From: Fulvia fulva
Taxonomy: Eukaryota; Ascomycota; Dothideomycetes; Mycosphaerellales; Mycosphaerellaceae
Length of the DNA: 64,000 bases
Direction: 5' to 3'
Assembly (NCBI RefSeq): GCF_020509005.1
Contig: NC_063012.1
Coordinates: 4,588,001-4,652,000 of the forward strand
This document shows positions 6,850 through 55,113 of the stretch, in pieces. The translations under genes were made by a program, and so were the position numbers. Positions within the stretch are counted from its first letter, which is position 1. Every line of letters begins with the position of its first letter. The notes under the pieces are model-generated. The model was not told the origin of the DNA, did not search any database, and was given only the letters and a program-made list of their open reading frames with translations.

Positions 6850-8119
6850 AGCTCCTCTAAGACAACTAGTAGCAACTTATAGAGGACGTAAAAAGTATAG
6901 AAACTAACGATTAGCTCCTATACCGGTCTCTATAGGTAATGATTACTTAGCTACATACGGCGCTAGTACTATCGTATTACCGAGGGTAATAAGAAATAAG
7001 GACGACGTCTTAGGCGATTAATAAGACCACCCGGATTTAATACCCCTATAGCTAGGTATCGGTCGCGGTATCGATACTAGGCCCCCGCCTAACGTACAAT
7101 ATAGTTACGATCCGTATTATAGTAAAGGAAGACTAGGCCGAAGTTACGAAGCTATTGAATAAGGAGCTCGCCTAATGAATTAATTAACTAGGGGTAGTCG
7201 TAGTGAACTAATAGTCTAACGGTACTCTATAGATCTATACTAGCTCTACTACTACTAGGAGGTACCTAGAGGTATAGCTATAGTAGGCATCTAAGGTTAC
7301 GGTATTAGCGAAGGTCTTAACGAAGTAATTTACGATCCTAGTCTACGATATACCTAAAGAGTTCGACCTAACTAACTAAGGTTACCTACGTACTCTCTAA
7401 GAGGACAACCCGGTCACTCTTAACTCTCTAATCTAGAAGGCTACTTGGCTCTATAGGAAATGGCTAGAAGGTAAGAAGGCCTTAGCGCTAATTATATAGC
7501 TATAAGACGCGAAAGCGGCGGATCTAGTAATAGAACAAGGCCTAATCTAGTAATATAGCCTTAAGATAGTCAAAAAGTACTCCTTATCCTTTCGTGTCCT
7601 CTAATACTTTAAATGCTAATAGTATAGACACTAGTCCTATACCTATATAAATAAGTAGGCCTACTCGAACTATATAGGAGACTATATATCTAGGGACTAT
7701 ATATCGGCTACGAGACGGTACGCGAACTGTCCGGGGTACTACCTATCGTATAGCGCGGAATACCTAGAGCGGAAACTAGCGAAAAATAAGGCAATTATAA
7801 ATAGAACCGTCGCCCTAAGATTCTACGGCGACCGTAAGGCTAGTCTATACCGGGACTAGCTAGCGGCGGTTAGGTATAAGCGCCCTAGGGCCGAGAATAA
7901 TATAAAGGATACGTAACCTAGGGCGTACGGGAGGCTACGTACTCTACTAGTTATAGCGAGGGAATCTAACTAGGCCCGGCTCCCCTTTAGTATATAGCCA
8001 ATAGGCGTAGACTAGGACGTATAAGGTAGTAGGATATAGGACATTATAGAGAAAATGATTATCGATTACGATGACTAGCCTCGACACGCTTAGCATTATC
8101 TAGTATAACGTTAACTATA
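6850..8119 (+). mobile_element. RIPed Tad-B LINE fragment (ORF1 and start of ORF2)
   Basis: From about 6857 the sequence follows the reverse complement of 25,190 down to 23,931, that is ORF1 and the beginning of ORF2 of the full-length Tad-B LINE. For example 7930-8110 matches rc 24,150-23,940. It breaks off at GTTAACTATA (8110-8119), immediately before a Fot1 terminal repeat. In undisturbed Tad-B copies the next bases are GTAAGGAT; those bases are found, next to the other Fot1 end, on the minus strand at 48,340-48,349. This fragment is therefore one half of a Tad-B copy split by a Fot1 insertion and then separated by an inversion. Confidence 0.75.
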
Positions 8120-8214
8120 ACGTACTTTACTACCGAGCGGGCCACTTTTGCTAAGAACTATACCACTTCTATAGATATAGCTATATAACTACTATAAACT
8201 ATTGATATGTCTTT
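8120..8214 (+). mobile_element. 5' end of Fot1-like transposon copy 2, split by LINE A
   Basis: Begins ACGTACTTTACTACCGAG directly after TA (8118-8119). It is the inverted counterpart of the copy 1 terminus at 4649. One GAGCGGGC unit is present. Homology to the reverse complement of 4540-4649 runs to about 8195, after which LINE A starts at about 8215. The rest of this transposon is on the minus strand at 48,350-49,402. Confidence 0.75.
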
Positions 8215-8224
8215 AAGGGACACG

Positions 8225-9484
8225 ATGATAGCGATCGCAGGAAACGACCAGGAGCAGGAGAGTAACGAGTGGAAGGAGGTCTGCAGGAAGGCAGAAACAA
8301 TGGCAATGGCAGGAGATGGCGAGCACCCAGAAAGAGCACTTAAGGGGATGATTTTGGAGCTCCTTGGAGGGCTAAAGGCACTAAGGAGCCAAACAGGACA
8401 AATCATTAACAGGACAGTAGCAGCAGCAGCAAAGAAGAGGACACAGGAAGGCCAGAAACCAAGCCAACCAACCTGGGCAGCAATTGCATCCCAAAACCCT
8501 CCCCCCCCGAAAACAGCTATCAAGATCTACATTTCCGACCAGCAAGAGCAGAAAGAGATTGAGGGCCTGTCAGGCAAGGAGATCATACAGAAGATTGGGA
8601 TACAAGGCATCATTGGAGCCAGGAAAGAGAAGGGAGGTGTCCTTAAGCTGTTCACAGCACAGGAGCAAGACAGGAAGAGGCTAGCGACACAGAAGGAGTG
8701 GACAGTCAAACTAGGCAAGACGGCTAAGGTCTCACACCAACAAAATATGGTTATTGCCCATAGGATGACCACAAAGTTTGACATTGAAGGAGACCTTAAG
8801 AGGCTGCAGGACCAGAACCAGGCTGTATGCCCAGGGCTACAGATCATAAAAGCAGCATAGGTCAACAGAAAGACAAAGGACACAAAGAGAGAGTCTTCTC
8901 TAGTGCTCTGGATAGGCACTGCAGAACAGGCAAACACCGTGCTTGACAAGGGCATCTTCTGGGAATGTGAAAGAATGGACACAGAAATCTATAGAAGCAC
9001 CCACAGACTACTGCAATGCTTCAAGTGCCAACAGTATGGTCATATCTCTACTAGATGCCCAAGCCAAAAGGACACTTGTTCCCACTGTGCTGGTAGCCAC
9101 AAAGTACAGAATTGCACAGCCCCAAAGAGTGAAGCCAGATGTGCATGCTGTGGAAAGAAACACCCTTCCTGGTCCCAAGACTGCACAGCTAGGATTGAGG
9201 CAAAGAGGAGGGCAAGAGAAGCCAGGATCAACACCCCTATCAGATTCCAGACAGGGACAATCACCCAAGAACCCCTAAGGACTGTCTACAACCCTCTAAA
9301 AAGAGGCAGAACAGAAGAGACCATACAGGCCCAAGGCCACCCTGCCATAGGTAGACCAAAATCAATTGTGGTTGCAGGAAGAGACCCGTCACAAAGCAGG
9401 CTCAACCTTACCACAATCCCAAATAGCAGCCAGCAGCAGGAAGCACGAGAAGACCAGCAGGAGACCAGCATGGATGAGTCATGA
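8225..9484 (+). CDS. LINE A ORF1: gag-like RNA-binding protein with zinc knuckles, one in-frame TAG
   Basis: ORF1 proteins of Tad-type LINEs bind element RNA and form the RNP that is reverse-transcribed in the nucleus. The frame runs from ATG 8225 (MIAIAGND) to TGA 9484, 419 codons, but is interrupted by TAG at 8858-8860. The ATG at 8207 belongs to flanking DNA and is absent from LINE B, so I prefer 8225. The first part (about 211 codons) is charged, with a Gln/Lys-rich linker. The second part carries three cysteine knuckles (9017-9180): CFKCQQYGHISTRC (CX2CX4HX4C), then CSHC...H...C and CACCGKKH...C. The TAG is one C-to-T step from CAG (Gln) in CpA context and also occurs in LINE B. An AUG at 8903 could restart the second part. 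The last codon overlaps the ORF2 start as ATGA (9481-9484). Confidence 0.85.
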
Positions 9485-12400
9485 TTGAGACACCCAATCT
9501 TACCACTATCCAGTACAATGTCAACAAAAGCCAGCACAAGGTCCAGAGAAGCTTTCTCCAAGCACTGGACCCAAAGAAACACCTAGTCATTGCAGTCCAG
9601 GAACCTTGGATTAACAGCAAATCTAACAGACCATCTACTGCTAACGACCCAAGGTATCACACACTCCTAGCCAAACAAGGCACCCCTAGAACATGCATGT
9701 ACATCAGCAAAGAGATGGCAACAGACAGCTGGGAACAAATCCAACAGGAAGGGGGAGACATCACCTCAGTCAGACTCAACACCAACCAAGGCAGCATCCA
9801 CATCCACAGTGTATACAACCCACCCCCTAGCTCCAGAAGCAGCACCCAGCTGGGCACACTACAACAGCTGCCAGACATCTTGCAGAGTGACTCCCAACAC
9901 ATCGTGCTGGGAGACTTCAACTTGCACCATCCTACATGGGGATCAGACTTTGCACCTGCCTATCACTTCCTAGCTAACAGACTCCTCTCCACTACCCAAA
10001 GCAACAACATGCACCTAGTTACCCCAAAGGGCCTAACTACCTGGTCACAGAGAGCAAGCTCAAGCACCATTGACCTGTGCTTTGCATCACATGACCTGCA
10101 GCAGAAGGTCACCAGATGCTGGGTTAACCAGGACTTGGAGTCCTCATCAGATCACCTCCCAATTCAGGTGGAGTTTGAAACACAGACACAGCAGGAAGGA
10201 GACCTAGAACCTCAGCTGGCCTGGAAGGCAGCCAACTGGGAACAGATCAGACAAGACCTGGAACAGAAGCTAGCTGGACTAGAGACCAGGAGACTGGAAA
10301 CAGCCTTAGACATAGACCAAGCAGTGGCAGAACTGGTTAGAACAATGCAGGAAACTGCAGCAGCCCACACTAGAGAAAAGAAACAGTCACTGTACCAGAA
10401 GCCATTCTGGACAAAGGAATGCTCAGAGAAGGTCAAGGCAGCCAGGCAGGCCAGGAGAGCCCTTACCCAGAGTCACTCCCAGGAAGCATGGGACAGATAC
10501 AACCAGGCAACCAGAGACAAGAAGGCCCAGATCAAGAGGGACAAGATGCTGGAGTGGAGGTCAACAGTTGGATCCATTACCCAGAATCCTGAGAAGATGT
10601 GGAAACTAGCAAAGTGGGCAAGACAACCCACACAGGACAGAAACATGCTGCCCCAGTTTCCAAACATTGAAGACCAGGAAGGAGTAATCCAACACACTCT
10701 CCCAGGAAAGGCACAGGCATTGGGGAAACATTTCTTTGGCACACAGGTAGAAGCTGACCTGCAGGATCTGGAGGGCAGTGTGTATCCAACACCACTAGAG
10801 CAATCCTGCACAGTGGGAGAGGGAGAGATCAAGAGCATCATTAAGACACTCTCAGGAAACAAGGCCCCAGGACCAGATGGGATTCCAGACTTGTTCATCA
10901 AGACATGCAAGGACCAGATCTCCCCTGCACTGTCAAACATCTTTTCACAGTGCATGGTCCAAGGACACTGCCCTAAACACTTCAAGGAGTCACTGACTGT
11001 GGTCTTGAGAAAACCACAGAAAGAGGACTACACAAAGCTAAAGGCATACAGACCTATTGCCTTGCTCAACACACTAGGCAAACTCCTGGAAAAGATCATA
11101 GCAGAAAGGCTGACAAACCTAGCTGAAGAACATGGAATCCTTCCTGAAGAACAGATGGGAGGCAGGAAACAAAGATCAACACTAACAGCTGTGGAACTTA
11201 TCACAGAGCAGATCAAGACCCTATGGCACTTTGGGAACAACAAAGCAGCCACACTCCTCTCACTAGACATATCAGGAGCCTTTGACAATGTCTCACACCA
11301 GAGGCTGATCCACATCCTGAAACAGAAGGCTATCCCCAACTGGACAGTCCAGTTCATCCAGTCCTTCCTCAGAGGTAGAACCACAAGACTAAGACTGGGC
11401 AGATACAAATCTGACAGCATGCCTACAGAGACAGGAATCCCACAGGGATCAACAATGTCTCCAATCCTGTTTCTCCTCTTTATAGCAGACCTGCCAGCAA
11501 AGCTAAACTCTAGAAACACATCAACCTCAGGGTTTGTGGATGACACAAACATCCTAGCCTGGTCAGACAGCACAGAAGAGAACTGTAGAATCTTGCAGAA
11601 GAAACACGAGGAATGTGAGGAATGGGCCAGGAAACATGGAGCCAGATTTGCCCCAGAGAAGTATCAACTCATCCACTTCAGTAGAGCCAGAAACAGACAC
11701 AATATGCAAGCCCCAATCACCATTCAGGGACACACAACAGAACCCTCAAGTGAATTAAGGGTGCTAGGAATATGGCTGGATCCAAAGCTTAGCTGGGGAC
11801 CACAGGTCAAGAAAGCACAGGCAAGAGCAGACAACAACAGGCAATCAATTGACAGGCTTACAGCCTCCACATGGGGAGCCACATTTGCGAAAGCAAAGGT
11901 TATGTACAAGGCCGTTGTGAAGCTAGCCATGCTATATGGGGCCCAGATCTGGTCAGCCCAAGACAAGATCCCAAAGAGAATTGCAGATCCCATCAGCAGA
12001 GCCCAAGCCTCCTGTCTGAAAAAGGTGCTTGGAGCATACAAGTCAACTCCAACAAGGGTGGTCGAAATGGAGTCTGGCTCCCCACCAGCCAAGCTCTACC
12101 TTCAAGGGTTGAGATACCAGTATGCAGGAAAGACGTCTGCATACCCAGCCCAGCTAGTAATCCAGAAGGCAGTCAACAAAATCAGGAGCCAGTGCACAAG
12201 AAGGCACAGACAAGCAAGACCCAATCCAGCCCCACAGAAGCAGCAGGACCTGCAGAAGTTCAAAGAACTAACAGAACAGCTGCACCTAGCCCAGCAGGAA
12301 CAGGACAGAAGGGCTCAAGGGAGAGGATCAGCAGCCAGCCAAGGGAAGAAGCAACAGTCTCTAGCTGAAAGGATGGCAGGACTCCTCTGGAAGACTGAAT

Positions 12401-12696
12401 GGACAAGAACCCCACAGAGGCCAGGAACCCCAAAGGCACTCCAACAGTTTGGTAGCCACAACTACCTACTGTACTCAGACCTGACCAGGTCAGAAGCAAG
12501 CATAGCAATACAAATCCGCTCTGAACACATCGGAGTCAGGGCATACCTGCATCAGAGAAAAGTCCCAGGTATCGAAGACAAGAGTTGCCCATGCGGCTAC
12601 CTGTCCCAGAATGTCGAACATAGACTTCTGGTTTGCAAAGAATGGAGTACAGGGAGAGGTGAATGGAGGGCAAGGGCAAGGAACAGAAACTTCTAA
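9481..12696 (+). CDS. LINE A ORF2: endonuclease-reverse transcriptase
   Basis: 1,071 codons. The endonuclease, which nicks the target to prime reverse transcription, spans residues about 1-230 with N in IQYNVNKS, E41 (VQEPW), D145 and N147 (GDFNLHHP) and D224-H225 (SSDHLPI) present. The reverse transcriptase spans about 440-780: GPDGIPDLFIK, AYRPIALLNTLGKLLEKI, SLDISGAFDNVSH, GIPQGSTMSPILFLLF and the catalytic F685-V-D-D688. The C-terminal Cys/His segment is CPCG...HRLLVC, usual in this clade. No RNase H domain (no DGS-type motif) is seen. It begins inside the ORF1 stop (ATGA). The terminal TAA (12,694-12,696) seems premature: 56 more open codons follow. All listed catalytic residues are intact. 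Confidence 0.95.
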   Translation: MIETPNLTTIQYNVNKSQHKVQRSFLQALDPKKHLVIAVQEPWINSKSNRPSTANDPRYHTLLAKQGTPRTCMYISKEMATDSWEQIQQEGGDITSVRLNTNQGSIHIHSVYNPPPSSRSSTQLGTLQQLPDILQSDSQHIVLGDFNLHHPTWGSDFAPAYHFLANRLLSTTQSNNMHLVTPKGLTTWSQRASSSTIDLCFASHDLQQKVTRCWVNQDLESSSDHLPIQVEFETQTQQEGDLEPQLAWKAANWEQIRQDLEQKLAGLETRRLETALDIDQAVAELVRTMQETAAAHTREKKQSLYQKPFWTKECSEKVKAARQARRALTQSHSQEAWDRYNQATRDKKAQIKRDKMLEWRSTVGSITQNPEKMWKLAKWARQPTQDRNMLPQFPNIEDQEGVIQHTLPGKAQALGKHFFGTQVEADLQDLEGSVYPTPLEQSCTVGEGEIKSIIKTLSGNKAPGPDGIPDLFIKTCKDQISPALSNIFSQCMVQGHCPKHFKESLTVVLRKPQKEDYTKLKAYRPIALLNTLGKLLEKIIAERLTNLAEEHGILPEEQMGGRKQRSTLTAVELITEQIKTLWHFGNNKAATLLSLDISGAFDNVSHQRLIHILKQKAIPNWTVQFIQSFLRGRTTRLRLGRYKSDSMPTETGIPQGSTMSPILFLLFIADLPAKLNSRNTSTSGFVDDTNILAWSDSTEENCRILQKKHEECEEWARKHGARFAPEKYQLIHFSRARNRHNMQAPITIQGHTTEPSSELRVLGIWLDPKLSWGPQVKKAQARADNNRQSIDRLTASTWGATFAKAKVMYKAVVKLAMLYGAQIWSAQDKIPKRIADPISRAQASCLKKVLGAYKSTPTRVVEMESGSPPAKLYLQGLRYQYAGKTSAYPAQLVIQKAVNKIRSQCTRRHRQARPNPAPQKQQDLQKFKELTEQLHLAQQEQDRRAQGRGSAASQGKKQQSLAERMAGLLWKTEWTRTPQRPGTPKALQQFGSHNYLLYSDLTRSEASIAIQIRSEHIGVRAYLHQRKVPGIEDKSCPCGYLSQNVEHRLLVCKEWSTGRGEWRARARNRNF

Positions 12697-12867
12697 GCCA
12701 TGATCAGCAATAAGGGAGACCTCCAGAGAATTACAAGGTGGATCATCCACCAAGGATTTTTGGAGCAGTTCTCTCTTACTAGGGAAACAGAGAGATGGAT
12801 TGAGGAGAGAAAGAAGGAGGAGGAGAGCAGGAAGAGGGGGACAACTCCAGGGTTGCAGACAAGGTAG
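12697..12867 (+). other. Probable former C-terminus of ORF2 after an in-frame TAA
   Basis: Directly after the TAA, the same frame stays open for 56 codons to TAG 12,865-12,867. It begins AMISNKGDLQRITRWIIHQG and continues FLEQFSLTRE, then an Arg/Glu-rich end. A short amphipathic W-I-x-x-x-G-x-L-x-Q-F segment is what I expect at the end of ORF2 in this LINE clade. TAA is one C-to-T step in CpA context from CAA (Gln). LINE B has the same TAA and the same open extension. Confidence 0.55.
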
Positions 12868-13061
12868 TCAGAGGCTAACCACCATGACACTAGTGCACCC
12901 TAATGGAAGGAAAACTGAGAACTCATAGCAAGGAAGCTATTAGAGAAGGAGAGGAGGTTTTTACCTAGGAATAGGTTTCCTACCTTATGCAGTAACATAT
13001 ATAGACATAAACCCGCATGGGCCGGAGGGCACCACAACGGGTAAATAAATTATCTATCTAT
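12868..13061 (+). repeat. LINE A 3' UTR and TATC-repeat tail
   Basis: About 180 bp of non-coding DNA containing an A/G-rich stretch and GGTTTCCTACC. It ends GGGTAAATAAAT followed by about three TATC units. LINE B ends GGGTAAATGAAT with four units. A tetranucleotide tail takes the place of poly(A). Confidence 0.8.
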
Positions 13062-13533
13062 CTATATAGAAGGAAAGTCCCGGACGTATATAGCCTAGTA
13101 TACTAGTATAACTACCCGTTATAGAACCCGGAGTATATAATACTACGGTGCCCGTAATAGGTAGAAGGACGAGGCTAGTAGAGAGCTAAGGTAGTAAGAC
13201 GCGACTACTAGTTAATCGTAACGGACAAGCGAGACGTAAGACGGATAGTATAGTAGATACTATAGTAGGGCTTTCTTAAACAGTTTACGCTAGCTAGCGA
13301 GACGGAGGAGTAAATAGAGAAGAGGCGGGAGGTTAAGGGGGTGTAGATAGGGTAGTCATTAGGGTAGGCCTATAATACTAGTATACTATTAATAAGGAAA
13401 ACACGAAAGAAGGTAAGGTTAAGAACGTATAGGAGAGGAGAGGGGTTTTCACTTTATAATACGAGTTTCCCCTTTATAACTAGAAGTAGATAGTATAGCT
13501 ATATAGACTAATAGGCTCTATAATAGTATAATA

Positions 13534-13564
<31 letters not shown>
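13062..13564 (+). mobile_element. RIPed Tad-C LINE, 3' end with TA-repeat tail
   Basis: Starts with CTATATAGAAGGAAAG (13,062-13,077), also found at 54,260-54,275 on the minus strand. One frame at about 13,118-13,160 reads YPL*NPEYIILRCP, aligning with YLSQNVEHRLLVC of LINE A; stop for Gln and Tyr for His are both RIP-type changes. A 3' UTR resembling that of LINE A follows (GAGAGGAGAGGGGTTTTCAC) and then a (TA)n tail at 13,539-13,564. This is the missing 3' end of the Tad-C copy at 54,260-60,400. Confidence 0.7.
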
Positions 13565-14449: not shown

Positions 14450-17400
14450 GGATAAGGTCCTATTATATATACCGATAATACTATCGAATAGCGGAGGACG
14501 AAGAGCGACGCGCGGAGTAACGACGCGCCTAGGAGAAGCGGAGGATAGCGACTAAATATTATAACGACTATAGTAACTATAAGCCGCTAACTAAAAGAAC
14601 TAGTATACAAAATATAGTATAGAAACGGTAGATTATACCGCTGTCGTATACGAAATTATAGCTCCCCTCGCGAACGCTAATCTGCCCTAGGAACGCGTAA
14701 TCCGTAGCCTCCTCGAGACTTTAGCTAAAGTAATCTAGGAGCTACTACGGGCTACGAAGACGCTAGCGCTAGTAAAAGACGTAACAAACGCCGACCTCCT
14801 ACGGGAGATCTAAGCGCTTAGAAGAGCTAGGCCGGCGATATATACCTAAGCGGCTATAGCGGCTATAGAGTAACCGACGTACCGCGCTAGGCTAGTCTAG
14901 CGCGAGGTTACGATATATATTAATAACCTCGAAGAAAGAGAGCGGGGAGCGGTACTCTCGTACTAACGCCTCGTAGAGTAGGCGCGCTAGGCTAGTAAGT
15001 AGGACATTATCGTAGCCTAGAAGCTTAGGAGCGGAGACGTACGGTATACGCTCGTAACTATAGTAGGGAGATCGACGCTTCTATAGAACGTAGCCTAGGC
15101 GGTCGAGGTACTAAATACGAAGAGCGTAATACCGGTCGCGCTAGTATACTAGGCCCTTATATACGGTGTCTAAGTCGATACCTTCCTAGCGGATACTAGC
15201 CCGGTAGCGATAGGAGCGGTAATCGCGAAGGATAACTAGGCTACTATCCTAGGCCTCGTTATTACCCGGGCGTACTAGATAAAGAATCCGGAATAAATAG
15301 AGCGGAAATACTTATCGCTCGTAATCGCGTTTAAGTATAACGGCTAGAGGGCCTAAGCCGTAGAGAAGGGACTAGGCCTCGCCTACTCGTACTACTACGT
15401 AGAGAAGTATAACTATATCTATATAGTAACCTAGTACTTCCGGTACTAGAGATTTAGGTATACTATAAAATACTACTAACGGGAGACCTAGTATAGCTAC
15501 TACGCGATAGCGTATAATACCCGCGACTACCTCTAACCTAAGATAAGTAGGTACGCTAACTACGGTAGACGCTATAAGGCGTAGATAGTAGGTATAGAGT
15601 AAAGAGGTAGGCGGTAGAGTAGGCGGTAGGAGCGCGTCTAGGCGTACGATAGGTAGGAGAAATAGCGACCGTATTATACCGACCGAAGGTCGATACCGAC
15701 AGTTTCTAGCTAGTTATAGAAGAGGGTAAGAAGAGGCGACTAAACAGCGATAGACGCCTAGTATACGGAGTAGGTCGACTAGCGCTTACCGACCCCCGGG
15801 CTTAGGCCCCTAGATAGACGCGCCTCGATACGACGATATTCCGCCCTTACGGAGGTAACGTACCTCTACTAGTAGCCCCGGTAGCGGTAGCGGCCCCGCG
15901 ATAGGATAGCGAGGGCGGGGACGGCGATACCTAACCGCGGAGGTAGAACGGAGAACTATAGCTAATATAATAGTCTAACTATAAATAATACGCTTACCTA
16001 GCTAACTATCGTATAGTATAACGCTAATTAGAGTAAGGATAAGGCCTAGAAGCCGCTACTTAGCCTCCTATACCCTAGCCGATACTACGTAGTCGCTATC
16101 TAGGAATAGTAGACGAACGGGAAGACGATACTCGGAGACCCGACGTACTACCTCGTAGTCCCTAAAGGTAACTAGCCGGTAGCGCGGGTCTACTTCTACG
16201 TAAGTAAAGAAATCGCGATAATAACGTAGACGACCTATACCTACTCTAGCGACGTAGCTTCGCTACGGCTACGCCTTACTAACGGTAAAATAGTAGCTAT
16301 CTATAATACCTATAACTAGTACTATATACCGGGCTCGATAGAAGACAATAGCTAGTCGGCTACTCTCTACTAGCTCTAAGGAGCCCTCTAATAGGACGCC
16401 GATATATATATCCTAGTCGGTAATCTTAATCTCTACTACCCGAGATAGAAAGGGGATAGCGTACTCTCGACCTATAACGCCGCTAATATACTTATCGGCC
16501 TAATAGAAGTATCCGGCCTTAACCTCGTACTCCTAGTAGGTATAGTTACGTACTAATAGTATAATACGACCTAGACGCTTAACCTAACCTTCGCGACCTA
16601 ATAGTTAGCCTAGCGGATAGTCTTCTACGATACGGACCTAGAACTCGATACCGGCTACCTAGACTACCTAGCTATCCGTATAACGTTCAATATAGCGTAC
16701 CTATAAGCGCTACTAGCCCTCGAACCGCGGCCCTAGTAGAAGTATATAGACTAGAAGGAGGTTAATAAGGCCCTAAAGGAAGGAATAACGGCCCTCCTAC
16801 CGCCGGTACTTCTCTACTTAGAGGCGGAACTCGACGCGGTAGTAGAGAACCTATAGTAGTATATCGCGGGAGTAATCCGGGATAGGATCTCCTAAGTCCG
16901 ACCCTCTAAGTACGCGTCGCTAGCCTAGTTATAGGAATACGTAGACGTAGTCTGCTCTACGGTAGCGGCGAGGCGCTAGTAGAAAGAGACGAAATAGGAC
17001 GCTATATATACCTAATACTACTAATAAGATAACGAGAAGAGTAGGATTATCCGGCGCTAGGGTAATATCGCGTAGCGCGACGCCGTTAGGGAAGCTATAG
17101 GAGACTAGAGTAAGGTCTAGAAGCTCGCTAAGTAGGCGCGTACGAGAAAGCCGGGGACGCCGCCGCTACTACTATAATTCCCGCCTATCTATAAAAGATA
17201 AGGGATCCTCTAGGAAACCTAGTAAGGTAGAGCTAACGTATTAGTAGAAGCGTTCTTCCCTCCTCTAGTTACGGCTCGGCTCGACAATATCGAGGGCTTC
17301 GTATACCTAATAGAGCTCGAGACTAGCTAAGAGGTAATAGAGGCGGAGATACTAATAGTACTAAAAGTAGCGCAACTAGATAAGGCCTCTAGACCGGATA

Positions 17401-17761: not shown

Positions 17762-20484
17762 TGTCACGGCCGCTCTATAAGAAGAGGATTCGAATCTGAT
17801 CACGTGACCCCTGATTACGTAGCCCGGATGACTAAGCTCGGCCCGATACCGACGCCCGACACCTCGGTCTTTAAGTATAGGCCTCGTTCTTAGACTCTCT
17901 TCTCTCTTTAGCTATCGACTTCGTTAATACTACCCTCTTATACCCTTGTCCTATAGTCTCGTAATACTTCGATAGCTTATATTAAGGACGCTACTATATT
18001 TAGCGCCGCTTAAGACTCTAGAAATCGCGACATTACGACTCCTTAAAATCCCCGACTCGTACTAGCGTAAAGGTAGCGTAGTACTTTCTCTTTCTCTCTA
18101 GATTAAGACGCTAAGAGGGCGTATTACTATATTATAGCTAGGCTATAGGGTACCGGTAGCCCTAGCGGCGGCGGCGGCGCGAATACTTAACGTATTAAGC
18201 GCCGCGCGCGACTAACTCGAAACTTAGAACTTTTTACGCAATCCGATTAGTATACCTAGTCCGACGACACCGTCCTACTAGATCTATTTACTAAGTACGC
18301 TAATAATAAACGCGCGGTTCTTAATAGGCTCCTAGAAGAGGAGGAAGGAGAGGATACCTAACCCGAAATTATAGATACTTTTGACCCCGTAGTATTGCTC
18401 TACGAGAGCGATATTATAGACCACCTCGATAAGAATAGGTCAACCGACAATACTCGTAAGGACTTTGCTATTAACTATATAGACGACCGCGGTCGTACCG
18501 GGATATACCGTGTCCTACTCGACTAACTACGGTTACTTAACGCGACTTAGTTTTACGACTACGTCTAGAACTAACTAGAGGCAATTGCCTACGCCCTTCG
18601 TAAACTCGAGGCTAATCACCGCTAAGCTGTCCTAGATAGGGCGGCGCTATATTAAGCTAACGAGCTAAATAAGAAGTTTAAGGGAGTATAGACCGAACTA
18701 TAATATACGGAAAAGTATAAGTAGGAATGTAAGTAGGACCTAGAACAAGCTAATAAAGACCTTATAAAGGCTAACTAGGACGTCACTAAGTATAGGAAGC
18801 AGGCTAATAACTAATATAGCTCTACTAAGAGAGCCGAAAAGGAGGTCGATATATTTAAGGTTAAAGTCGCTAAACTAGAAACACTCGTACCGGACGACTC
18901 CGCCCCTACGGCTACCGACGTAGTAGGGCTATAGTAGACTATTGCTACGCTTAAATAGGATCTCGAGGAAGCTAGGCGTAGCCGCACTACCGAGAAACCT
19001 AAGGAGCGTAGCGCCCGCTCCCTCTCTAAGTTACGACGTCGACGCGGCGATAGACTAGCTAAAAAGCCCGCCGAATAACCCGCTACGAAGCCTACGCGGA
19101 AGTAACGTAAGGAGTGATTCGCTAATAACTCCTCTAACCCCGATTCCTCCGACTCGTCCTTAGACTCTAGTTCCGATTTCGAAGAGCGTCTACGCCGTAA
19201 GAGTAAGGGTAAGGATAAGAGATCGAGAAAGAGATAAGAGACCGTTATCGTTAATAACGACGACTTTGAGATTATAGATAGTAGCGTAGATATCGTACGC
19301 TATGACCGAACTATACTAGAAGACTTTAAGACGAGTTCCCGTGTCGAAGTACCTAAACCTAAATTCTTAGGAGAGAATATAGGTAGTAAAGACTCGCCGA
19401 CACTTAATAAGTAGACTACTTAACTCGGTAATAAGCTTGCCGCCTCTATCTTTAAGGACGTGCTATCCACCCTATGTTTCGTATAAGAAACTACTATAGG
19501 GTTAGTATACTCTATACTCCGTAGTTATATTTCCTAGAAGATCGTCTTCTCTAAGATTCCCTCCGCGAGCCGGCTATTTAAGAGCGTAAAGAAATGCCTA
19601 CGTTTCCTAGATAAGAACTTTAGCGACTATAATCCCGAGGGTACCACGCGTAATAATATAGACACGTTGAAGATAGTAGAGAATAACATATTCTCCGAGT
19701 TCTATACTAAGTTCTAACGTAAGCGCGCCTAGCTCCTATAAGGCGCGAGCCGTAAGTACGAGGTTATCGATCTTAAGAAGAAGCTAAGCTTTAAGTACCG
19801 TAATCGACTAGTCCTACTACCTAACGCGAAGTCGGTTAAGGAGCTTACTCGGTAATACTACCGCCTAGAGAGCGAGCTAGCTTAACTTAAACACGACCTA
19901 CTACGTACTAAGAACGACGAGAAGAAGGACAAGAAGACGACTATACCTAAGGGTAACGGTACGGTATCGGTACCTCCTATAGTAGGGTAGATTATACTAC
20001 TAATACTCCCTTTAGATAACGGTATACCTCTCGGCCGCTCTCCTTATACTAATTAGCCGCTCCTTCCGTAGAAGGACCGCCCTAATTAGTATAAGAACCT
20101 TATATAACTTACTTAAGATTAGCGTACTTAGACTATCGCTAGCGGTAGCTACCTACGCTACTAGGGTACCGGCTATATCTTAGGCGCCGCCGGCTACCTA
20201 CTTGACCTATACGAGCGTATTAAGAAGAAGGCTAATAATAACGGCCTTACGGTCACTAAAGTACCGGCGGGAAATACCTAAGCTATCATTTGAGCGTAAT
20301 AGATAATAGTCCGCCCTAGAAAGTCTTATACTAGAACTAATACCCTTACGAACCTTATAAATATACCCGTAACGTATAGGCGTTTTCCTTGTAAGCCCGA
20401 GCGAGTACGCCCTCTTCTATAGAAGTAGATAAAGGACCCGAAGTCTCGTATTACTTTGTAGTAGAGGGTAGGGCAAATAGAATA
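17762..20484 (+). mobile_element. RIPed gypsy-type element 2: probable LTR and gag region
   Basis: TGTCACGGCC at 17,762 begins a stretch with an LTR-like look (CACGTG palindrome, TTTAAGTATAGG TATA-like site, C/T-rich leader), but no second LTR was found to prove it. From about 18,200 to 20,300 former coding sequence follows: Lys/Glu-rich coiled-coil segments, then about 19,360-19,870 reads like a gypsy gag core (NNIFSEFYTKF, RKRA, LKKKLSFKYRNRLVLLPNA). It is interrupted at about 20,485 by the Tad-B LINE; pol resumes at 32,247 beyond the copia insertion. Confidence 0.55.
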
Positions 20485-31293: not shown

Positions 31294-31700
31294 GGTGTGT
31301 ATGTTCCAAGGTGGTGGCTCAGATCCTGCTGAGGCTTCTGGTGTAGAATGGGAAAGTTCGTAGGTGTGGATACCAAGGCCTGCTTGGTAAAGTAAAGAAG
31401 GAGCGGTGTGAGGTCTCGGGGCTAGGACACAGGTCTGTCTCTCCTAGCAGAGCTTCAAATGACTTACTTGAAGTCCTTCTTGATAGTATCTCGATGCAGT
31501 TCTGCCTACAGAGTATCTTCAAGGTATTGGCTTTGAGTAAGCCGCACAGAGTCCTTGTCTGGGTTACCTATCACTTAGTATCGAACTAAGCTCCTTGATA
31601 GGATAGACGGGGTAGACTTCTGATTCCCAGATGTTTTCTGCTACGATAGCAAGGGATACAAGTAACCTGTACTGATATAGGTTGCTCTTATTCCTGCACA
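31294..31700 (-). other. Copia 5' leader
   Basis: About 400 bp of untranslated leader between the primer site and the gag-pol ATG. No conserved gene; short upstream open frames occur on both strands. Confidence 0.6.
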
Positions 31701-31717: not shown

Positions 31718-32241
31718 TGTTGAACAGGTACGGGTGGATGGCAGCGGAGTGGAGTAAGAGATCAATCTTCAACTGACTAATAGCACGAGCATGCAGCAAT
31801 ATATCAGGAACCAATATGTTGATTGTGTTGGATGTCTATCTAAGCTAAAGGGGAGAGAAGGTACAGTCCAGGGCATAGTTTTTACAACCCCTGTTCTTCC
31901 ACCTTTCCTCATTAGGAAGGATGTATCCACTGCTTGGCGTAGCTCATCACCTGGTGTGTCCTCCATTGTTGGCTATTACTGCCTCGCAGCGTTCTCGCAT
32001 ACTCTTGCATATACGTTGTATGTCCTCAGGTGTGAGCTTGGCCCATTCTTGATAGTGAGATTGAAGGTAGCAACACCTTCTGAGATGGACATGGATAGCC
32101 GGAAGGGGTTAGCGTAAATACAGGGGTTGTAAAAACCATGCCCAGGACTGTATCTCCCTACAAGCTGAGTCATCGTGGATGCCTTAGGCTGCCAGATCAC
32201 TTCCTGATTGTTGACTCCCTTTGAGATGCTACATCTTAACA
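31718..32241 (-). repeat. Copia 5' LTR (right), split by a MITE
   Basis: 524 bp: 235 bp of LTR plus a 287-bp MITE and its duplicated TA. Otherwise it differs from the left LTR at one base (31,740). Confidence 0.95.
31864..32150. mobile_element. MITE of Tc1/mariner type in the copia 5' LTR
   Basis: 287 bp with 30-bp terminal inverted repeats (31,864-31,893 and 32,121-32,150; 28/30 matches) starting CAGTCC. It is flanked by TA on both sides (31,862-31,863 and 32,151-32,152), where the empty LTR has a single TA. The CAGT terminus and TA target fit Tc1/mariner. Overlapping open frames inside show no transposase domain. The insertion splits an LTR, which may affect copia transcription. Confidence 0.93.
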
Positions 32242-39734: not shown

Positions 39735-39739
39735 TATAG

Positions 39740-46935: not shown

Positions 46936-46940
46936 TATAG

Positions 46941-48049: not shown

Positions 48050-48349
48050 TAGTTATATATATATATATTATATATCTAAGTACTACCTACGTAGAGGGAG
48101 GTAATATCTCCCCCGCCTTCTTCGTCTATATAGTATACTACCTCCTAGTTAGATTTAAGTATATTCTTACTAATATAGAAGTACGTACGGGGCCTACTAT
48201 CGCTTTATAGGTATATTATATAGCCTAGTAATTTATAGATTATTAGTCTCTTATAGTACGGGTTGATCTATAGCTCCTAGATTACTAGGACGTAGTAGAC
48301 GTACGGGTCCGCCTCGTATAGGAAATAGTTTTATACTATATCCTTACTA
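48050..48349 (-). mobile_element. RIPed Tad-B LINE fragment (start of ORF2), separated half
   Basis: Matches 23,640-23,930 of the full-length Tad-B in the same orientation. It breaks off at ATCCTTACTA (48,340-48,349) next to a Fot1 terminal repeat. Its missing neighbour bases, GTTAACTATA on the sense strand, lie at 8,110-8,119. Confidence 0.75.
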
Positions 48350-49402
48350 ACGTACTTTACTACCGAGTAGGCTATACTACCGAGCGGGCTACTTTTACTA
48401 AGAACTATACTACTTCTACTTCAATTACGACGGTATCTTAATACGACGACATCCTATAGAATTATTACTAGAAGGACGATTCCTCTTTAGATTCTTCGCT
48501 ATCTAGCGAGTCTACTTAATAGGTACGTACGTTATGCCCCGACTCGCTATATCGCTTATAGCGTCGTAGCCTTAGTACTAGCCGAACACTATCTACGACT
48601 CTCTACTTACTTCCTACCTCCTAGTATCCTCTAGAGGTATCAATTACGACGCCTTATGGAAGGTTAGAGACCCTCTAGACTAAATGTACTTGCGCTTTCG
48701 TGCTTTCCGCTATATAAGGGCCTAGTTAGACTTACGTAGCTTACTAATCTTACTTCGTATAAGAGCTATCTAATACGCTATCTCTCTACTCCCTCTCTAT
48801 TGCCCTATTAAATGACCTTCCTCTTTCTACTACGCCTTTCTAAACCCGTAACGACTCTCTAAGACGTAATAATACCTATTATAAACCCTATCTCGTCGAA
48901 GTTATAGGTGTCCTAGTTAAGGATACTATACTTCTCCTTTATATTACGTATAAGTAAGAACTACTTCTCGATAACGTCTAGATCTTCTATTAGGGCTCGC
49001 TAACGATCGTATCTACGTGTTATACGAACCTTTAGCTTACAATACCGCCTAATAAACCTGTCTATCTAATTAAGACTAGCGGGCTTAAGACCCTTCTCTT
49101 ATAGTAATCAATCGGCTATTACTCGTATACTAGCCTTTAATAGCGGGAAACCTCTAAGATCTAGCTCGAGTATATACTCAAGTATTACCCTCTCTTCTAG
49201 CTCTATAAGCTTCTTCGAATTAGGCTCATAGTTACCCCGAGGAGGTCGTCTATTTAATCGATACCCTAGTATAGTTCAAGACGCGTCGTATACCTTTATA
49301 GCAAGTCGATTCGTAATTATCGCGTCGCGTTTCGTAGCCTAGACAGCTAAGATCAGTTTGGCCTAGTTTGAAGACAATATACGCTATAATAGTAGTTATA
49401 TA
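48350..49402 (-). mobile_element. Fot1-like transposon copy 2, main part, split by LINE B
   Basis: Starts at the left with ACGTACTTTACTACCGAG directly after TA (48,348-48,349), two 17-bp TIR units, then a RIPed transposase on the minus strand. FDEIGF at 48,883-48,900 corresponds to FDETGF of copy 1. 48,455-49,400 is homologous to 3605-4545. It ends where the LINE B tail begins (49,403). With the 95 bp at 8120-8214 it would make an element of about 1.1 kb, short for an autonomous Fot1-type transposon, so it is probably an internal-deletion form. Confidence 0.75.
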
Positions 49403-49603
49403 TAGATAGATAGATAGATAATTCATTTACCCGTTGTGGTGCCCTCCGGCCCATGCGGGTTTATGTCTATATATGTTACTGCATAAGGTAGGAAACCTAT
49501 TCCTAGGTAAAAACCTCCTCTCCTTCTCTAATAGCTTCCTTGCTATGAGTTCTCAGTTTTCCTTCCATTAGGGTGCACTAGTGTCATGGTGGTTAGCCTC
49601 TGA

Positions 49604-49774
49604 CTACCTTGTCTGCAACCCTGGAGTTGTCCCCCTCTTCCTGCTCTCCTCCTCCTTCTTTCTCTCCTCAATCCATCTCTCTGTTTCCCTAGTAAGAGAG
49701 AACTGCTCCAAAAATCCTTGGTGGATGATCCACCTTGTAATTCTCTGGAGGTCTCCCTTATTGCTGATCATGGC
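49604..49774 (-). other. LINE B open extension after the ORF2 TAA
   Basis: Mirror of the extension in LINE A: the same TAA closes ORF2, and the same 56 further codons are open to a TAG. Sharing by both copies shows the stop was in the common source. Confidence 0.55.
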
Positions 49775-52700
49775 TTAGAAGTTTCTGTTCCTTGCCCTTG
49801 CCCTCCATTCACCTCTCCCTGTACTCCATTCTTTGCAAACCAGAAGTCTATGTTCGACATTCTGGGACAGGTAGCCGCATGGGCAACTCTTGTCTTCGAT
49901 ACCTGGGACTTTTCTCTGATGCAGGTATGCCCTGACTCCGATGTGTTCAGAGCGGATTTGTATTGCTATGCTTGCTTCTGACCTGGTCAGGTCTGAGTAC
50001 AGTAGGTAGTTGTGGCTACCAAACTGTTGGAGTGCCTTTGGGGTTCCTGGCCTCTGTGGGGTTCTTGTCCATTCAGTCTTCCAGAGGAGTCCTGCCATCC
50101 TTTCAGCTAGAGACTGTTGCTTCTTCCCTTGGCTGGCTGCTGATCCTCTCCCTTGAGCCCTTCTGTCCTGTTCCTGCTGGGCTAGGTGCAGCTGTTCTGT
50201 TAGTTCTTTGAACTTCTGCAGGTCCTGCTGCTTCTGTGGGGCTGGATTGGGTCTTGCTTGTCTGTGCCTTCTTGTGCACTGGCTCCTGATTTTGTTGACT
50301 GCCTTCTGGATTACTAGCTGGGCTGGGTATGCAGACGTCTTTCCTGCATACTGGTATCTCAACCCTTGAAGGTAGAGCTTGGCTGGTGGGGAGCCAGACT
50401 CCATTTCGACCACCCTTGTTGGAGTTGACTTGTATGCTCCAAGCACCTTTTTCAGACAGGAGGCTTGGGCTCTGCTGATGGGATCTGCAATTCTCTTTGG
50501 GATCTTGTCTTGGGCTGACCAGATCTGGGCCCCATATAGCATGGCTAGCTTCACAACGGCCTTGTACATAACCTTTGCTTTCGCAAATGTGGCTCCCCAT
50601 GTGGAGGCTGTAAGCCTGTCAATTGATTGCCTGTTGTTGTCTGCTCTTGCCTGTGCTTTCTTGACCTGTGGTCCCCAGCTAAGCTTTGGATCCAGCCATA
50701 TTCCTAGCACCCTTAATTCACTTGAGGGTTCTGTTGTGTGTCCCTGAATGGTGATTGGGGCTTGCATATTGTGTCTGTTTCTGGCTCTACTGAAGTGGAT
50801 GAGTTGATACTTCTCTGGGGCAAATCTGGCTCCATGTTTCCTGGCCCATTCCTCACATTCCTCGTGTTTCTTCTGCAAGATTCTACAGTTCTCTTCTGTG
50901 CTGTCTGACCAGGCTAGGATGTTTGTGTCATCCACAAACCCTGAGGTTGATGTGTTTCTAGAGTTTAGCTTTGCTGGCAGGTCTGCTATAAAGAGGAGAA
51001 ACAGGATTGGAGACATTGTTGATCCCTGTGGGATTCCTGTCTCTGTAGGCATGCTGTCAGATTTGTATCTGCCCAGTCTTAGTCTTGTGGTTCTACCTCT
51101 GAGGAAGGACTGGATGAACTGGACTGTCCAGTTGGGGATAGCCTTCTGTTTCAGGATGTGGATCAGCCTCTGGTGTGAGACATTGTCAAAGGCTCCTGAT
51201 ATGTCTAGTGAGAGGAGTGTGGCTGCTTTGTTGTTCCCAAAGTGCCATAGGGTCTTGATCTGCTCTGTGATAAGTTCCACAGCTGTTAGTGTTGATCTTT
51301 GTTTCCTGCCTCCCATCTGTTCTTCAGGAAGGATTCCATGTTCTTCAGCTAGGTTTGTCAGCCTTTCTGCTATGATCTTTTCCAGGAGTTTGCCTAGTGT
51401 GTTGAGCAAGGCAATAGGTCTGTATGCCTTTAGCTTTGTGTAGTCCTCTTTCTGTGGTTTTCTCAAGACCACAGTCAGTGACTCCTTGAAGTGTTTAGGG
51501 CAGTGTCCTTGGGCCATGCACTGTGAAAAGATGTTTGACAGTGCAGGGGAGATCTGGTCCTTGCATGTCTTAATGAACAAGTTTGGAATCCCATCTGGTC
51601 CTGGGGCCTTGTTTCCTGAGAGTGTCTTAATGATGCTCTTGATCTCTCCCTCTCCCACTGTGCAGGATTGCTCTAGTGGTGTTGGATACACACTGCCCTC
51701 CAGATCCTGCAGGTCAGCTTCTACCTGTGTGCCAAAGAAATGTTTCCCCAATGCCTGTGCCTTTCCTGGGAGAGTGTGTTGGATTACTCCTTCCTGGTCT
51801 TCAATGTTTGGAAACTGGGGCAGCATGTTTCTGTCCTGTGTGGGTTGTCTTGCCCACTTTGCTAGTTTCCACATCTTCTCAGGATTCTGGGTAATGGATC
51901 CAACTGTTGACCTCCACTCCAGCATCTTGTCCCTCTTGATCTGGGCCTTCTTGTCTCTGGTTGCCTGGTTGTATCTGTCCCATGCTTCCTGGGAGTGACT
52001 CTGGGTAAGGGCTCTCCTGGCCTGCCTGGCTGCCTTGACCTTCTCTGAGCATTCCTTTGTCCAGAATGGCTTCTGGTACAGTGACTGTTTCTTTTCTCTA
52101 GTGTGGGCTGCTGCAGTTTCCTGCATTGTTCTAACCAGTTCTGCCACTGCTTGGTCTATGTCTAAGGCTGTTTCCAGTCTCCTGGTCTCTAGTCCAGCTA
52201 GCTTCTGTTCCAGGTCTTGTCTGATCTGTTCCCAGTTGGCTGCCTTCCAGGCCAGCTGAGGTTCTAGGTCTCCTTCCTGCTGTGTCTGTGTTTCAAACTC
52301 CACCTGAATTGGGAGGTGATCTGATGAGGACTCCAAGTCCTGGTTAACCCAGCATCTGGTGACCTTCTGCTGCAGGTCATGTGATGCAAAGCACAGGTCA
52401 ATGGTGCTTGAGCTTGCTCTCTGTGACCAGGTAGTTAGGCCCTTTGGGGTAACTAGGTGCATGTTGTTGCTTTGGGTAGTGGAGAGGAGTCTGTTAGCTA
52501 GGAAGTGATAGGCAGGTGCAAAGTCTGATCCCCATGTAGGATGGTGCAAGTTGAAGTCTCCCAGCACGATGTGTTGGGAGTCACTCTGCAAGATGTCTGG
52601 CAGCTGTTGTAGTGTGCCCAGCTGGGTGCTGCTTCTGGAGCTAGGGGGTGGGTTGTATACACTGTGGATGTGGATGCTGCCTTGGTTGGTGTTGAGTCTG

Positions 52701-52990
52701 ACTGAGGTGATGTCTCCCCCTTCCTGTTGGATTTGTTCCCAGCTGTCTGTTGCCATCTCTTTGCTGATGTACATGCATGTTCTAGGGGTGCCTTGTTTGG
52801 CTAGGAGTGTGTGATACCTTGGGTCGTTAGCAGTAGATGGTCTGTTAGATTTGCTGTTAATCCAAGGTTCCTGGACTGCAATGACTAGGTGTTTCTTTGG
52901 GTCCAGTGCTTGGAGAAAGCTTCTCTGGACCTTGTGCTGGCTTTTGTTGACATTGTACTGGATAGTGGTAAGATTGGGTGTCTCAATCAT
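49775..52990 (-). CDS. LINE B ORF2: endonuclease-reverse transcriptase
   Basis: 1,071 codons, two amino-acid differences from LINE A ORF2: Asn in GPDGIPNLFIK and Ala in SQCMAQGHC. All endonuclease residues (E41, D145, N147, D224, H225) and the FVDD motif are kept. The Asp-to-Asn change is G-to-A; it lies close to the RT fingers motif and might weaken activity, but Asn is not at a known catalytic position. Start codon and ATGA overlap with ORF1 as in LINE A. Confidence 0.95.
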   Translation of the reverse strand: MIETPNLTTIQYNVNKSQHKVQRSFLQALDPKKHLVIAVQEPWINSKSNRPSTANDPRYHTLLAKQGTPRTCMYISKEMATDSWEQIQQEGGDITSVRLNTNQGSIHIHSVYNPPPSSRSSTQLGTLQQLPDILQSDSQHIVLGDFNLHHPTWGSDFAPAYHFLANRLLSTTQSNNMHLVTPKGLTTWSQRASSSTIDLCFASHDLQQKVTRCWVNQDLESSSDHLPIQVEFETQTQQEGDLEPQLAWKAANWEQIRQDLEQKLAGLETRRLETALDIDQAVAELVRTMQETAAAHTREKKQSLYQKPFWTKECSEKVKAARQARRALTQSHSQEAWDRYNQATRDKKAQIKRDKMLEWRSTVGSITQNPEKMWKLAKWARQPTQDRNMLPQFPNIEDQEGVIQHTLPGKAQALGKHFFGTQVEADLQDLEGSVYPTPLEQSCTVGEGEIKSIIKTLSGNKAPGPDGIPNLFIKTCKDQISPALSNIFSQCMAQGHCPKHFKESLTVVLRKPQKEDYTKLKAYRPIALLNTLGKLLEKIIAERLTNLAEEHGILPEEQMGGRKQRSTLTAVELITEQIKTLWHFGNNKAATLLSLDISGAFDNVSHQRLIHILKQKAIPNWTVQFIQSFLRGRTTRLRLGRYKSDSMPTETGIPQGSTMSPILFLLFIADLPAKLNSRNTSTSGFVDDTNILAWSDSTEENCRILQKKHEECEEWARKHGARFAPEKYQLIHFSRARNRHNMQAPITIQGHTTEPSSELRVLGIWLDPKLSWGPQVKKAQARADNNRQSIDRLTASTWGATFAKAKVMYKAVVKLAMLYGAQIWSAQDKIPKRIADPISRAQASCLKKVLGAYKSTPTRVVEMESGSPPAKLYLQGLRYQYAGKTSAYPAQLVIQKAVNKIRSQCTRRHRQARPNPAPQKQQDLQKFKELTEQLHLAQQEQDRRAQGRGSAASQGKKQQSLAERMAGLLWKTEWTRTPQRPGTPKALQQFGSHNYLLYSDLTRSEASIAIQIRSEHIGVRAYLHQRKVPGIEDKSCPCGYLSQNVEHRLLVCKEWSTGRGEWRARARNRNF

Positions 52991-54246
52991 GACTCATCCA
53001 TGCTGGTCTCCTGCTGGTCTTCTCGTGCTTCCTGCTGCTGGCTGCTATTTGGGATTGTGGTAAGGTTGAGCCTGCTTTGTGACGGGTCTCTTCCTGCAAC
53101 CACAATTGATTTTGGTCTACCTATGGCAGGGTGGCCTTGGGCCTGTATGGTCTCTTCTGTTCTGCCTCTTTTTAGAGGGTTGTAGACAGTCCTTAGGGGT
53201 TCTTGGGTGATTGTCCCTGTCTGGAATCTGATAGGGGTGTTGATCCTGGCTTCTCTTGCCCTCCTCTTTGCCTCAATCCTAGCTGTGCAGTCTTGGGACC
53301 AGGAAGGGTGTTTCTTTCCACAGCATGCACATCTGGCTTCACTCTTTGGGGCTGTGCAATTCTGTACTTTGTGGCTACCAGCACAGTGGGAACAAGTGTC
53401 CTTTTGGCTTGGGCATCTAGTAGAGATATGACCATACTGTTGGCACTTGAAGCATTGCAGTAGTCTGTGGGTGCTTCTATAGATTTCTGTGTCCATTCTT
53501 TCACATTCCCAGAAGATGCCCTTGTCAAGCACGGTGTTTGCCTGTTCTGCAGTGCCTATCCAGAGCACTAGAGAAGACTCTCTCTTTGTGTCCTTTGTCT
53601 TTCTGTTGACCTATGCTGCTTTTATGATCTGTAGCCCTGGGCATACAGCCTGGTTCTGGTCCTGCAGCCTCTTAAGGTCTCCTTCAATGTCAAACTTTGT
53701 GGTCATCCTATGGGCAATAACCATATTTTGTTGGTGTGAGACCTTAGCCGTCTTGCCTAGTTTGACTGTCCACTCCTTCTGTGTCGCTAGCCTCTTCCTG
53801 TCTTGCTCCTGTGCTGTGAACAGCTTAAGGACACCTCCCTTCTCTTTCCTGGCTCCAATGATGCCTTGTATCCCAATCTTCTGTATGATCTCCTTGCCTG
53901 ACAGGCCCTCAATCTCTTTCTGCTCTTGCTGGTCGGAAATGTAGATCTTGATAGCTGTTTTCGGGGGGGGAGGGTTTTGGGATGCAATTGCTGCCCAGGT
54001 TGGTTGGCTTGGTTTCTGGCCTTCCTGTGTCCTCTTCTTTGCTGCTGCTGCTACTGTCCTGTTAATGATTTGTCCTGTTTGGCTCCTTAGTGCCTTTAGC
54101 CCTCCAAGGAGCTCCAAAATCATCCCCTTAAGTGCTCTTTCTGGGTGCTCGCCATCTCCTGCCATTGCCATTGTTTCTGCCTTCCTGCAGACCTCCTTCC
54201 ACTCGTTACTCTCCTGCTCCTGGTCGTTTCCTGCGATCGCTATCAT
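52987..54246 (-). CDS. LINE B ORF1: gag-like RNA-binding protein, in-frame TAG
   Basis: Begins at ATG 54,246 (MIAIAGND). The upstream ATG of LINE A is absent, which supports this start. The same in-frame TAG as in LINE A closes the first part at 53,611; the frame stays open after it and carries the three CCHC knuckles to 52,987. No amino-acid difference from LINE A ORF1 was noticed. Confidence 0.85.
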
Positions 54247-54259
54247 CGTGTCCCTTTTC

Positions 54260-55113
54260 CTTTCCTTCTATATAGGTAGGCCCTTAACCCGATATGTTCG
54301 GACCTAATCTATATCGCGATGCTTACTTCGGCCCTTGTTAGGTTACGGTAGAGTAGGTAGTTATGTCTCTAGAAGGGGCGTAAGGCTAGGGGTCCTCGAT
54401 TTAGTAGAGGATTCTCTTCCTATTCCTATTCCTAAAGGTATCCCGCTACCTACTCTATAAGGCTTTACGTCTTTACCCTTTTCCTCCGTACCTTGTCCTC
54501 CCCCTCCTTCCTCTCTAGTCACTCCTAGGTTCGCTTAACGACTTTAAACGTACGTAGATCGTCTTACTTCTAGCTTTAACGTACCCTAAGGCTAGGTAGT
54601 CGGTCGTACCTCCTAGCGATCTTCTCTATAGAGTCCCGAATAGCTTATTATACTAGATAATCCGCCGTCTTCCTAGCGTATTAGATCCTTATTCCCTTAC
54701 TAAAATGTTTAATCGGGGGGGACCCTGTCTCTACCTCTACTACTCTTGTTAGCGTTGTCTTATAGGCTCCTAGTATCCGTCTAAGGTTCGCGGCCTACGT
54801 CCGGTTTAGGGTCCCTCTATTCGCTTCGGGGTCGGTTTACCTACTCCTCCTATCCCTATATCTAGGCCCCGTAGAGCATTACTAGTTTTACGATCGTCTT
54901 ATATATAATCCTTACCTTATTAAACGTAGCTCCCTATATTAACGTTATAAGTCTAGTTATTATAGCCTCGTTAACCTAGGCTCTATTCTAGGCTTTCCTA
55001 ATCTAGGGGTTCTAGCTAAGCTTAGGGTCTAGCTAGATTCCTAGGACTCGTAATTCGGGAGAGGGCTTCGTTACGTAACCCTAGATAGTAACCGTTACTT
55101 ATATATTATAGTA
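54260..55113 (-). mobile_element. RIPed Tad-C LINE, C-terminal part of ORF2
   Basis: The minus-strand translation near 54,390-54,280 matches LINE A HNYLLYSDLTRSEASIAI and IRSEHIGVRAYLH with RIP-type changes (HNYLLY, SIAI, IRSEHIGLRAYLY). It ends at the LINE B 5' end with CTATATAGAAGGAAAG, whose continuation is at 13,062. On the right it is cut by the Tad-B insertion and resumes at 58,502. Confidence 0.75.

Follow-up and report, generated by a model that had tools for sequence, protein, structure and literature searches.

How did two nearly identical copies of one long interspersed nuclear element (LINE), lying in opposite orientation in the genome of Fulvia fulva, come to carry each other's flanks? 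The question is raised by a stretch of 64,000 nucleotides, positions 4,588,001-4,652,000 of contig C1, in the assembly of Cladosporium (Fulvia) fulvum Race 5 (PMC9453070). The genome examined comprises 67,169,167 bases on 14 contigs, with 11,362,290 bases on C1; the whole 64,000-nucleotide stretch is called the window below, and coordinates without a contig name are counted from its first letter. Our analysis indicates that ectopic homologous recombination between the inverted LINEs, A and B, very probably reversed the orientation of the intervening ∼36 kb. On this reading, 13,062-49,402 is the inverted segment when compared with the ancestral order deduced here, and the crossover itself lies inside the LINEs. 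A preliminary description of the window had interpreted it in this way, and the exchanged target duplications and rejoined host elements reported here support that interpretation. The element names 'Fot1', 'Tad-B' and 'Tad-C' are taken from the same description.

Target duplications are exchanged between two inverted LINE copies

LINE copy A (8,219-13,046, plus strand) and copy B (49,425-54,252, minus strand) are homologous, lie one at each end of the segment and are separated by 36.3 kb. Across 4.8 kb they are ∼99.9% identical, B differing from A by three substitutions over 4,829 aligned bases. Pfam domains confirm that the element is a LINE, i.e. a non-long terminal repeat (non-LTR) retrotransposon. 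In copy A, the endonuclease-reverse transcriptase open reading frame (ORF) 2 at 9,478-12,696 contains RVT_1 (E = 5.9e-37) and Exo_endo_phos_2 (E = 1.3e-22), and the preceding ORF carries a CCHC zinc knuckle (zf-CCHC, E = 5.8e-05). The label Tad is again that of the preliminary description; the LINE Tad1 is reported to be abundant in C. fulvum (PMC10823647).

Neither A nor B has a target duplication of its own (self scores of 7 and 8, respectively), and the duplications are found when the two copies are compared crosswise. The sequence CTATATAGAAGGAAAG at the 3′ end of A (13,062-13,077, plus strand) matches the 5′ flank of B (54,260-54,275, minus strand) at 16 of 16 positions, 7 extra bases lying between this flank sequence and the LINE body. 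Reciprocally, TATATAACTACTAT at the 3′ end of B (49,389-49,402, minus strand) matches the 5′ side of A (8,182-8,195, plus strand) at 14 of 14 positions; here the extra bases that separate it from the LINE body number 23. All strings quoted in the preliminary description are present where it had located them. In the window, CTATATAGAAGGAAAG occurs exclusively at these two places; TATATAACTACTAT has a third, previously unmentioned occurrence at 4,540-4,553 (minus strand), inside another copy of the TA-target transposon described below. Judged by letter counts alone, such matches within the window are only moderately rare: for the 16-mer with up to two mismatches, 0.18 were expected and 2 found (2 of 100 shuffles reached 2), and for the 14-mer with up to one mismatch, 0.31 were expected and 3 found (1 of 100 shuffles reached 3).

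Other copies of the family served as a control. The 5′-end pattern, allowing up to two mismatches, was present at 67 places in the genome including A and B, and the 3′-end pattern at 280. We took 40 of the 65 other 5′-end places, which together with A and B gave 42 copies; 41 of them were scored, L029 being left out as its 3′ end was not found. The 3′ flank of every copy was then compared with the 5′ flank of every copy (820 pairs; threshold score ≥13). Own-side comparisons reached the threshold in 20 of the 41 copies, and cross comparisons in 12 of 1,640. Target duplications of this family, seen in these 20 copies and also in the copy at C1:4764760 (15/15), are ∼13-18 bp long. A and B were the sole pair of the 820 in which both cross-matches exceeded 10 (16 and 14); in the next best reciprocal pairs the weaker side scored 10. 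High one-way scores also occurred, such as 20 for L019 to L035 and 17 for the 3′ flank of B to L014, and we think that these derive from shared host repeats. Another one-way match, of 15 bases, links the 3′ flank of L042 to the 5′ flank of L038 (one LINE junction on Chr1, the other on Chr12); their partner sides do not match. The other 21 scored copies, A and B included, showed no duplication of their own scoring ≥13 within ∼250 bases of the 5′ end, with two of them reaching 11. Long 5′ extensions, decay and other exchanges are candidate reasons for such absences. Since about half of the copies show none, a missing own duplication means little by itself; it is the reciprocal swap that is the signal.

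Re-pairing the flanks restores the host elements

Both LINEs adjoin fragments of other repeats. On one side, the left end of a TA-target transposon (the 'Fot1' of the preliminary description), the host of one LINE, lies at 8,120-8,195 (plus strand), and the remaining 1,053 bases of this transposon now adjoin LINE B at 48,350-49,402 (minus strand). The host of the other LINE is a Tad-C-like element, with its left part at 54,260-55,112 (minus strand) and its right part at 13,062-13,557 (plus strand; outer end approximate). We joined the flanks in two ways, as they stand and re-paired across the two LINEs, and compared the joins with 59 records, namely 58 genome loci and the window; four loci that represent the window's own stretch were excluded. 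In the present order, none of the 47 alignments at A and none of the 82 at B crossed the joint. After re-pairing, 6 of 69 crossed joint 1 (the Tad-C-like element) and 5 of 49 crossed joint 2 (the TA-target transposon). Host sequence is thus restored only when the flanks are re-paired.

Joint 1 is closely matched (>90%) in seven loci, six of which span it (L054 and L056-L060). These six align without a gap over the 20 bases to either side of the joint; their identities of 91-95% on the left and 95-97% on the right resemble those between paralogues (90-96% and 94-98%). Further LINE loci match at 71-73% from their own ORF2 region, without spanning. In the re-paired Tad-C-like piece, the C-terminal pattern of LINE ORF2 is followed across the joint by a degenerate frame; the preliminary description had the Tad-C frame stop at 54,260 and resume at 13,062. 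Joint 2 is spanned by L051, L053, L054 (at two places) and the window copy at 3,602-4,611; L014, L027, L033 and L056 give short matches only (30-52 bases).

The TA-target transposon has in turn split a Tad-B-like element. One part of the latter lies at 6,857-8,119, inverted relative to 23,929-25,190, and the other at 48,058-48,349, in the same direction as 23,639-23,930. A TA dinucleotide stands at each transposon end (8,118-8,119 and 48,348-48,349), and the Tad-B-like pieces that flank the transposon have complementary ends, with the TA repeated, matching the uninterrupted sequence at 23,639-24,516. The two end strings, GTTAACTATA and TAGTAAGGAT, are at the positions given for them previously, and the 18-mer that they form when joined is intact at 23,921-23,938; TAGTAAGGAT is also found at 63,832-63,841. 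We considered and rejected the notion that the Tad-B-like pieces are a proven single copy: among the 40 paralogues listed for each piece, the nearest are 92% (right) and 94-95% (left) identical, in a star-like arrangement. The pairing of the two pieces is supported by their position, not by sequence kinship. Of the earlier proposal of a split transposon between Tad-B halves, the strings, the TA repeats and the complementary ends were recovered, and descent from the same Tad-B copy was left unproved by the sequence.

The transposon itself shows the TA target and terminal inverted repeats of the Fot1/pogo type, its terminal ∼69 bases being present in inverted form beside many copies. In the 110-amino-acid 'Fot1' ORF of L051, the one ORF tried for a transposase domain, there was no Pfam match at E values up to 0.1; window positions 3,074-3,481 gave a sub-threshold match to HTH_Tnp_Tc5 (E = 0.11).

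Taken together, inverting 13,062-49,402 re-pairs both duplications, the TA-target transposon and the Tad-C-like element, for which the present order has no spanning match, and the Tad-B-like pieces then meet at complementary bases.

Proposed origin of the inversion and alternative explanations

In the explanation we favor, two copies of one LINE family would have inserted independently, in opposite orientation and ∼41 kb apart, one into the TA-target transposon nested in a Tad-like element and the other into a second Tad-like element. The copies would then have undergone homologous recombination, crossing over at some point within their ∼4.83 kb of shared sequence; this exchange would have inverted the intervening ∼36 kb and left each LINE joining the 5′ flank of one insertion to the 3′ flank of the other. 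We infer a single reciprocal crossover inside the LINEs. Two independent insertions predating the exchange are indicated because the two duplications differ, as do the extra 5′ bases (23 and 7); the preliminary description had likewise placed both insertions before the inversion.

Alternatively, A and B could owe their chimeric junctions to a pair of independent, non-reciprocal events and not to a single inversion; break-induced copying that involved LINE copies elsewhere would be one such event. Odd LINE junctions are indeed common, given the 21 of 41 copies that lack their own duplication at the threshold, and break-induced replication between transposable elements has been proposed for one loss of Avr9 (PMC10823647). 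However, two events would be needed to place complementary halves of two hosts at one locus, whereas one inversion explains both, and we regard the non-reciprocal route as very improbable.

Several observations weigh against an inversion through the LINEs. The 16-mer CTATATAGAAGGAAAG comes from a host element that is abundant, and so occurs at 104 places genome-wide (56 + 48); we therefore rejected it as stand-alone proof. L020, a LINE copy that adjoins joint 1, reaches this joint without spanning it, and L050 and L052 hold a long part of the transposon yet do not span joint 2. In the Tad-B-like pieces, the divergence of the right part (37/292) is about twice that of the left (38/588) and is skewed to C-to-T type changes. 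Neither the chimeric state of the LINEs nor the place of the crossover is visible from the differences between A and B, the copies being too alike and the compared copies not separating the two halves. Finally, the accessible part of a comparison of five isolates names three large rearrangements, and this inversion is not among them (PMC10823647).

The abundance of the 16-mer would fit a scenario without any rearrangement, in which the LINEs by chance lie next to unrelated pieces of abundant repeats and the shared letters reflect nothing more than repeat sequence. In the same vein, the two host searches yielded 748 and 912 candidates at first look, of which 40 per host were scored. Chance placement would nevertheless require complementary breaks in two different hosts, plus a reciprocal match of a kind unseen in the other comparisons among the 820 pairs, and the spanning test of the rejoined flanks also disfavors it; we give it almost no credence. 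The match between the LINE ends goes beyond chance because of its position at the LINE ends, its reciprocity and the continuity of the hosts. The preliminary description had itself named half-matches common to many copies as a possible objection, and this applies to the 16 letters but not to the junctions. Its proposal of one 16-base duplication split between the 3′ end of A and the 5′ end of B holds for the positions and the full match, though not for genome-wide specificity; that of shared transposon sequence at the 5′ side of A and the 3′ end of B holds for both places, short of the third occurrence at 4,540-4,553.

An assembly artefact, in which the wrong flanks were joined through the near-identical LINEs while the fungus keeps the segment unflipped, would account for hosts that are whole only in the unflipped order, and the 99.9% identity of A and B across 4.8 kb could favor such an error. 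The assembly data reported in the available text of PMC9453070 speak against it: the PacBio reads had a mean length of 14,638 bases, three times that of the LINE, at ∼125x coverage; Sniffles, run on the mapped PacBio reads, returned only two candidate structural variants, neither supported by Illumina data; and Hi-C gave no visible misassembly. Its authors describe the Race 5 assembly as essentially free of major misassembly (PMC9453070). Such reads should cross a repeat of 4.8 kb many times over. An assembly flip is thus unlikely, and on the strength of these published quality checks we infer that the living fungus itself carries the present order, which would then not be a choice of the assembler.

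Similarity of the two copies and the place of the proposed crossover

The three differences between the bodies of A and B, at 10,888, 10,899 and 10,958 in A coordinates, all fall within 71 bases (10,888-10,958, plus strand) of 4,828 (P = 0.00054 for three random sites, computed post hoc). The tails differ in one base (49,424 versus 13,047) and in the number of TATC units. Exact patterns with the alleles of A at 10,888 and 10,958 occur once each genome-wide, in A itself, and at 10,899 both alleles are present in the family (C in 25 and T in 17 of the 42 copies). No donor copy can be named for the cluster, because the patterns of these two alleles of A occur only in A. The preliminary description had suggested mapping the single-base differences to locate the crossover. 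No placement was obtained in this way, nor is one possible, since A and B are nearly identical and we found no donor for their cluster of differences.

Among the 42 aligned copies, A and B are mutually nearest, with 3 differences; the next is L009, with 38 differences from A and 37 from B, and both are at least 37 differences away from each of the other 40. Outside this alignment, the copy at C1:4764760 scored 8597 bits, below B (8694) but above the remaining 27 near full-length rows (8491 or less), in a list of 30 scored candidates that does not include L009. The copies at C1:4764760-4769585 and L009 (C1:4934337) are the most A/B-like of those compared and are found on the chromosome of A and B, no more than ∼340 kb away, which may reflect conversion or insertion acting locally. 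As causes of the identity of A and B, gene conversion and a recent shared origin are indistinguishable. Both copies look mosaic: B equals L019, L024 and L042 over 863 bases (10,474-11,336 in A coordinates), and in the neighboring stretches 9,425-10,630 and 11,435-11,836 L009 is nearest or joint nearest to A and B.

One could also imagine the LINE pair as a live switch, in which repeated exchange flips the 36-kb segment between nuclei or isolates and keeps the copies near-identical, with the 71-base cluster as a scar of exchange. We consider this improbable; if true, such a switch would operate in a mainly asexual fungus.

Relation to known rearrangements

The closest parallel is with the Galileo inversions of Drosophila buzzatii, for which ectopic recombination was inferred from opposite copies, exchanged target duplications and restored hosts (PMC2775673); the wording 'exchanged target site' is used both there and in PMC3355041. 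In both the Galileo case and ours, each breakpoint carries one of two opposite transposable element copies, and the exchanged target duplications point to ectopic recombination. For Galileo, however, the study included the non-inverted chromosome and describes both copies as chimeric (PMC2775673), whereas at the Fulvia locus the copies are LINEs, the ancestral order is inferred from the host elements and the chimera is invisible.

In C. fulvum itself, non-allelic recombination between transposable element copies has been proposed to underlie structural variants, among them a 91-kb deletion including Avr5 between two same-strand LINE/Tad1 copies (PMC10823647). Direct copies led to a deletion there, unlike the inverted copies and inversion described here. 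According to the same source, 97-98% of the structural variants found by pairwise alignment of C. fulvum isolates are insertions or deletions, and the inversions named in its available text measure 1.2 Mb (Chr1) and 654 kb (Chr10), each in another isolate (PMC10823647). Copies of the yeast retroelement Ty1 likewise act as substrates for rearrangement, with the difference that the breaks were induced by Cas9 (PMC9879454). The inversion at the present locus was not named in the literature we found on exchanged target duplications, on fungal cases (by title) or on inversions and LINEs in C. fulvum. Ty1 is an LTR element.

While the kind of event is well known, its scars here are unusually complete. 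The inversion can be traced at base resolution to two retrotransposon copies from one genome and with no outgroup, which is dispensable because the nested host elements serve as witnesses. Combining the duplication-swap test with the rejoining of hosts could allow past recombination events to be counted among the LINEs of all five published isolates. C. fulvum, the tomato mould fungus, is a crop pathogen in which avirulence genes are reported to be lost through rearrangements mediated by transposable elements (PMC10823647).

Contents of the segment and further observations on the LINE family

Within 13,062-49,402, the sole stop-to-stop ORF of at least 200 codons is of the copia type and runs uninterrupted for 1,601 amino acids (26,638-31,443, minus strand). 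Shorter ORFs of at least 110 codons at 15,375-15,713, 18,814-19,299 and 31,758-32,114 had no Pfam match at E values up to 1; four further short ORFs that overlap the copia ORF were left out. This limited ORF scan, which would miss intron-rich genes, found no non-transposon gene in the segment.

An in-frame stop at 8,858-8,860 interrupts the first ORF of both A and B and is common to 16 of the 42 copies, these two included. Compared with the column majority of the 40 other copies, 19 of the 29 C-to-T/G-to-A differences of LINE A are in CpA/TpG context, a skew of the pattern seen in repeat-induced point mutation. Within copy L012, ∼145 bases are duplicated in tandem, query positions 2,633-2,777 being matched twice. 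L020 is another LINE copy that, on the opposite strand and at L020 positions 1-232, directly adjoins the Tad-C-like insertion site of LINE B; the flank match of L020 ends within 2 bases of the joint, and L020 also has no duplication of its own. In L014, a stretch of ∼60 bases between its own 15-base duplication and the start of the LINE resembles the transposon that hosts one of the LINEs in the window.

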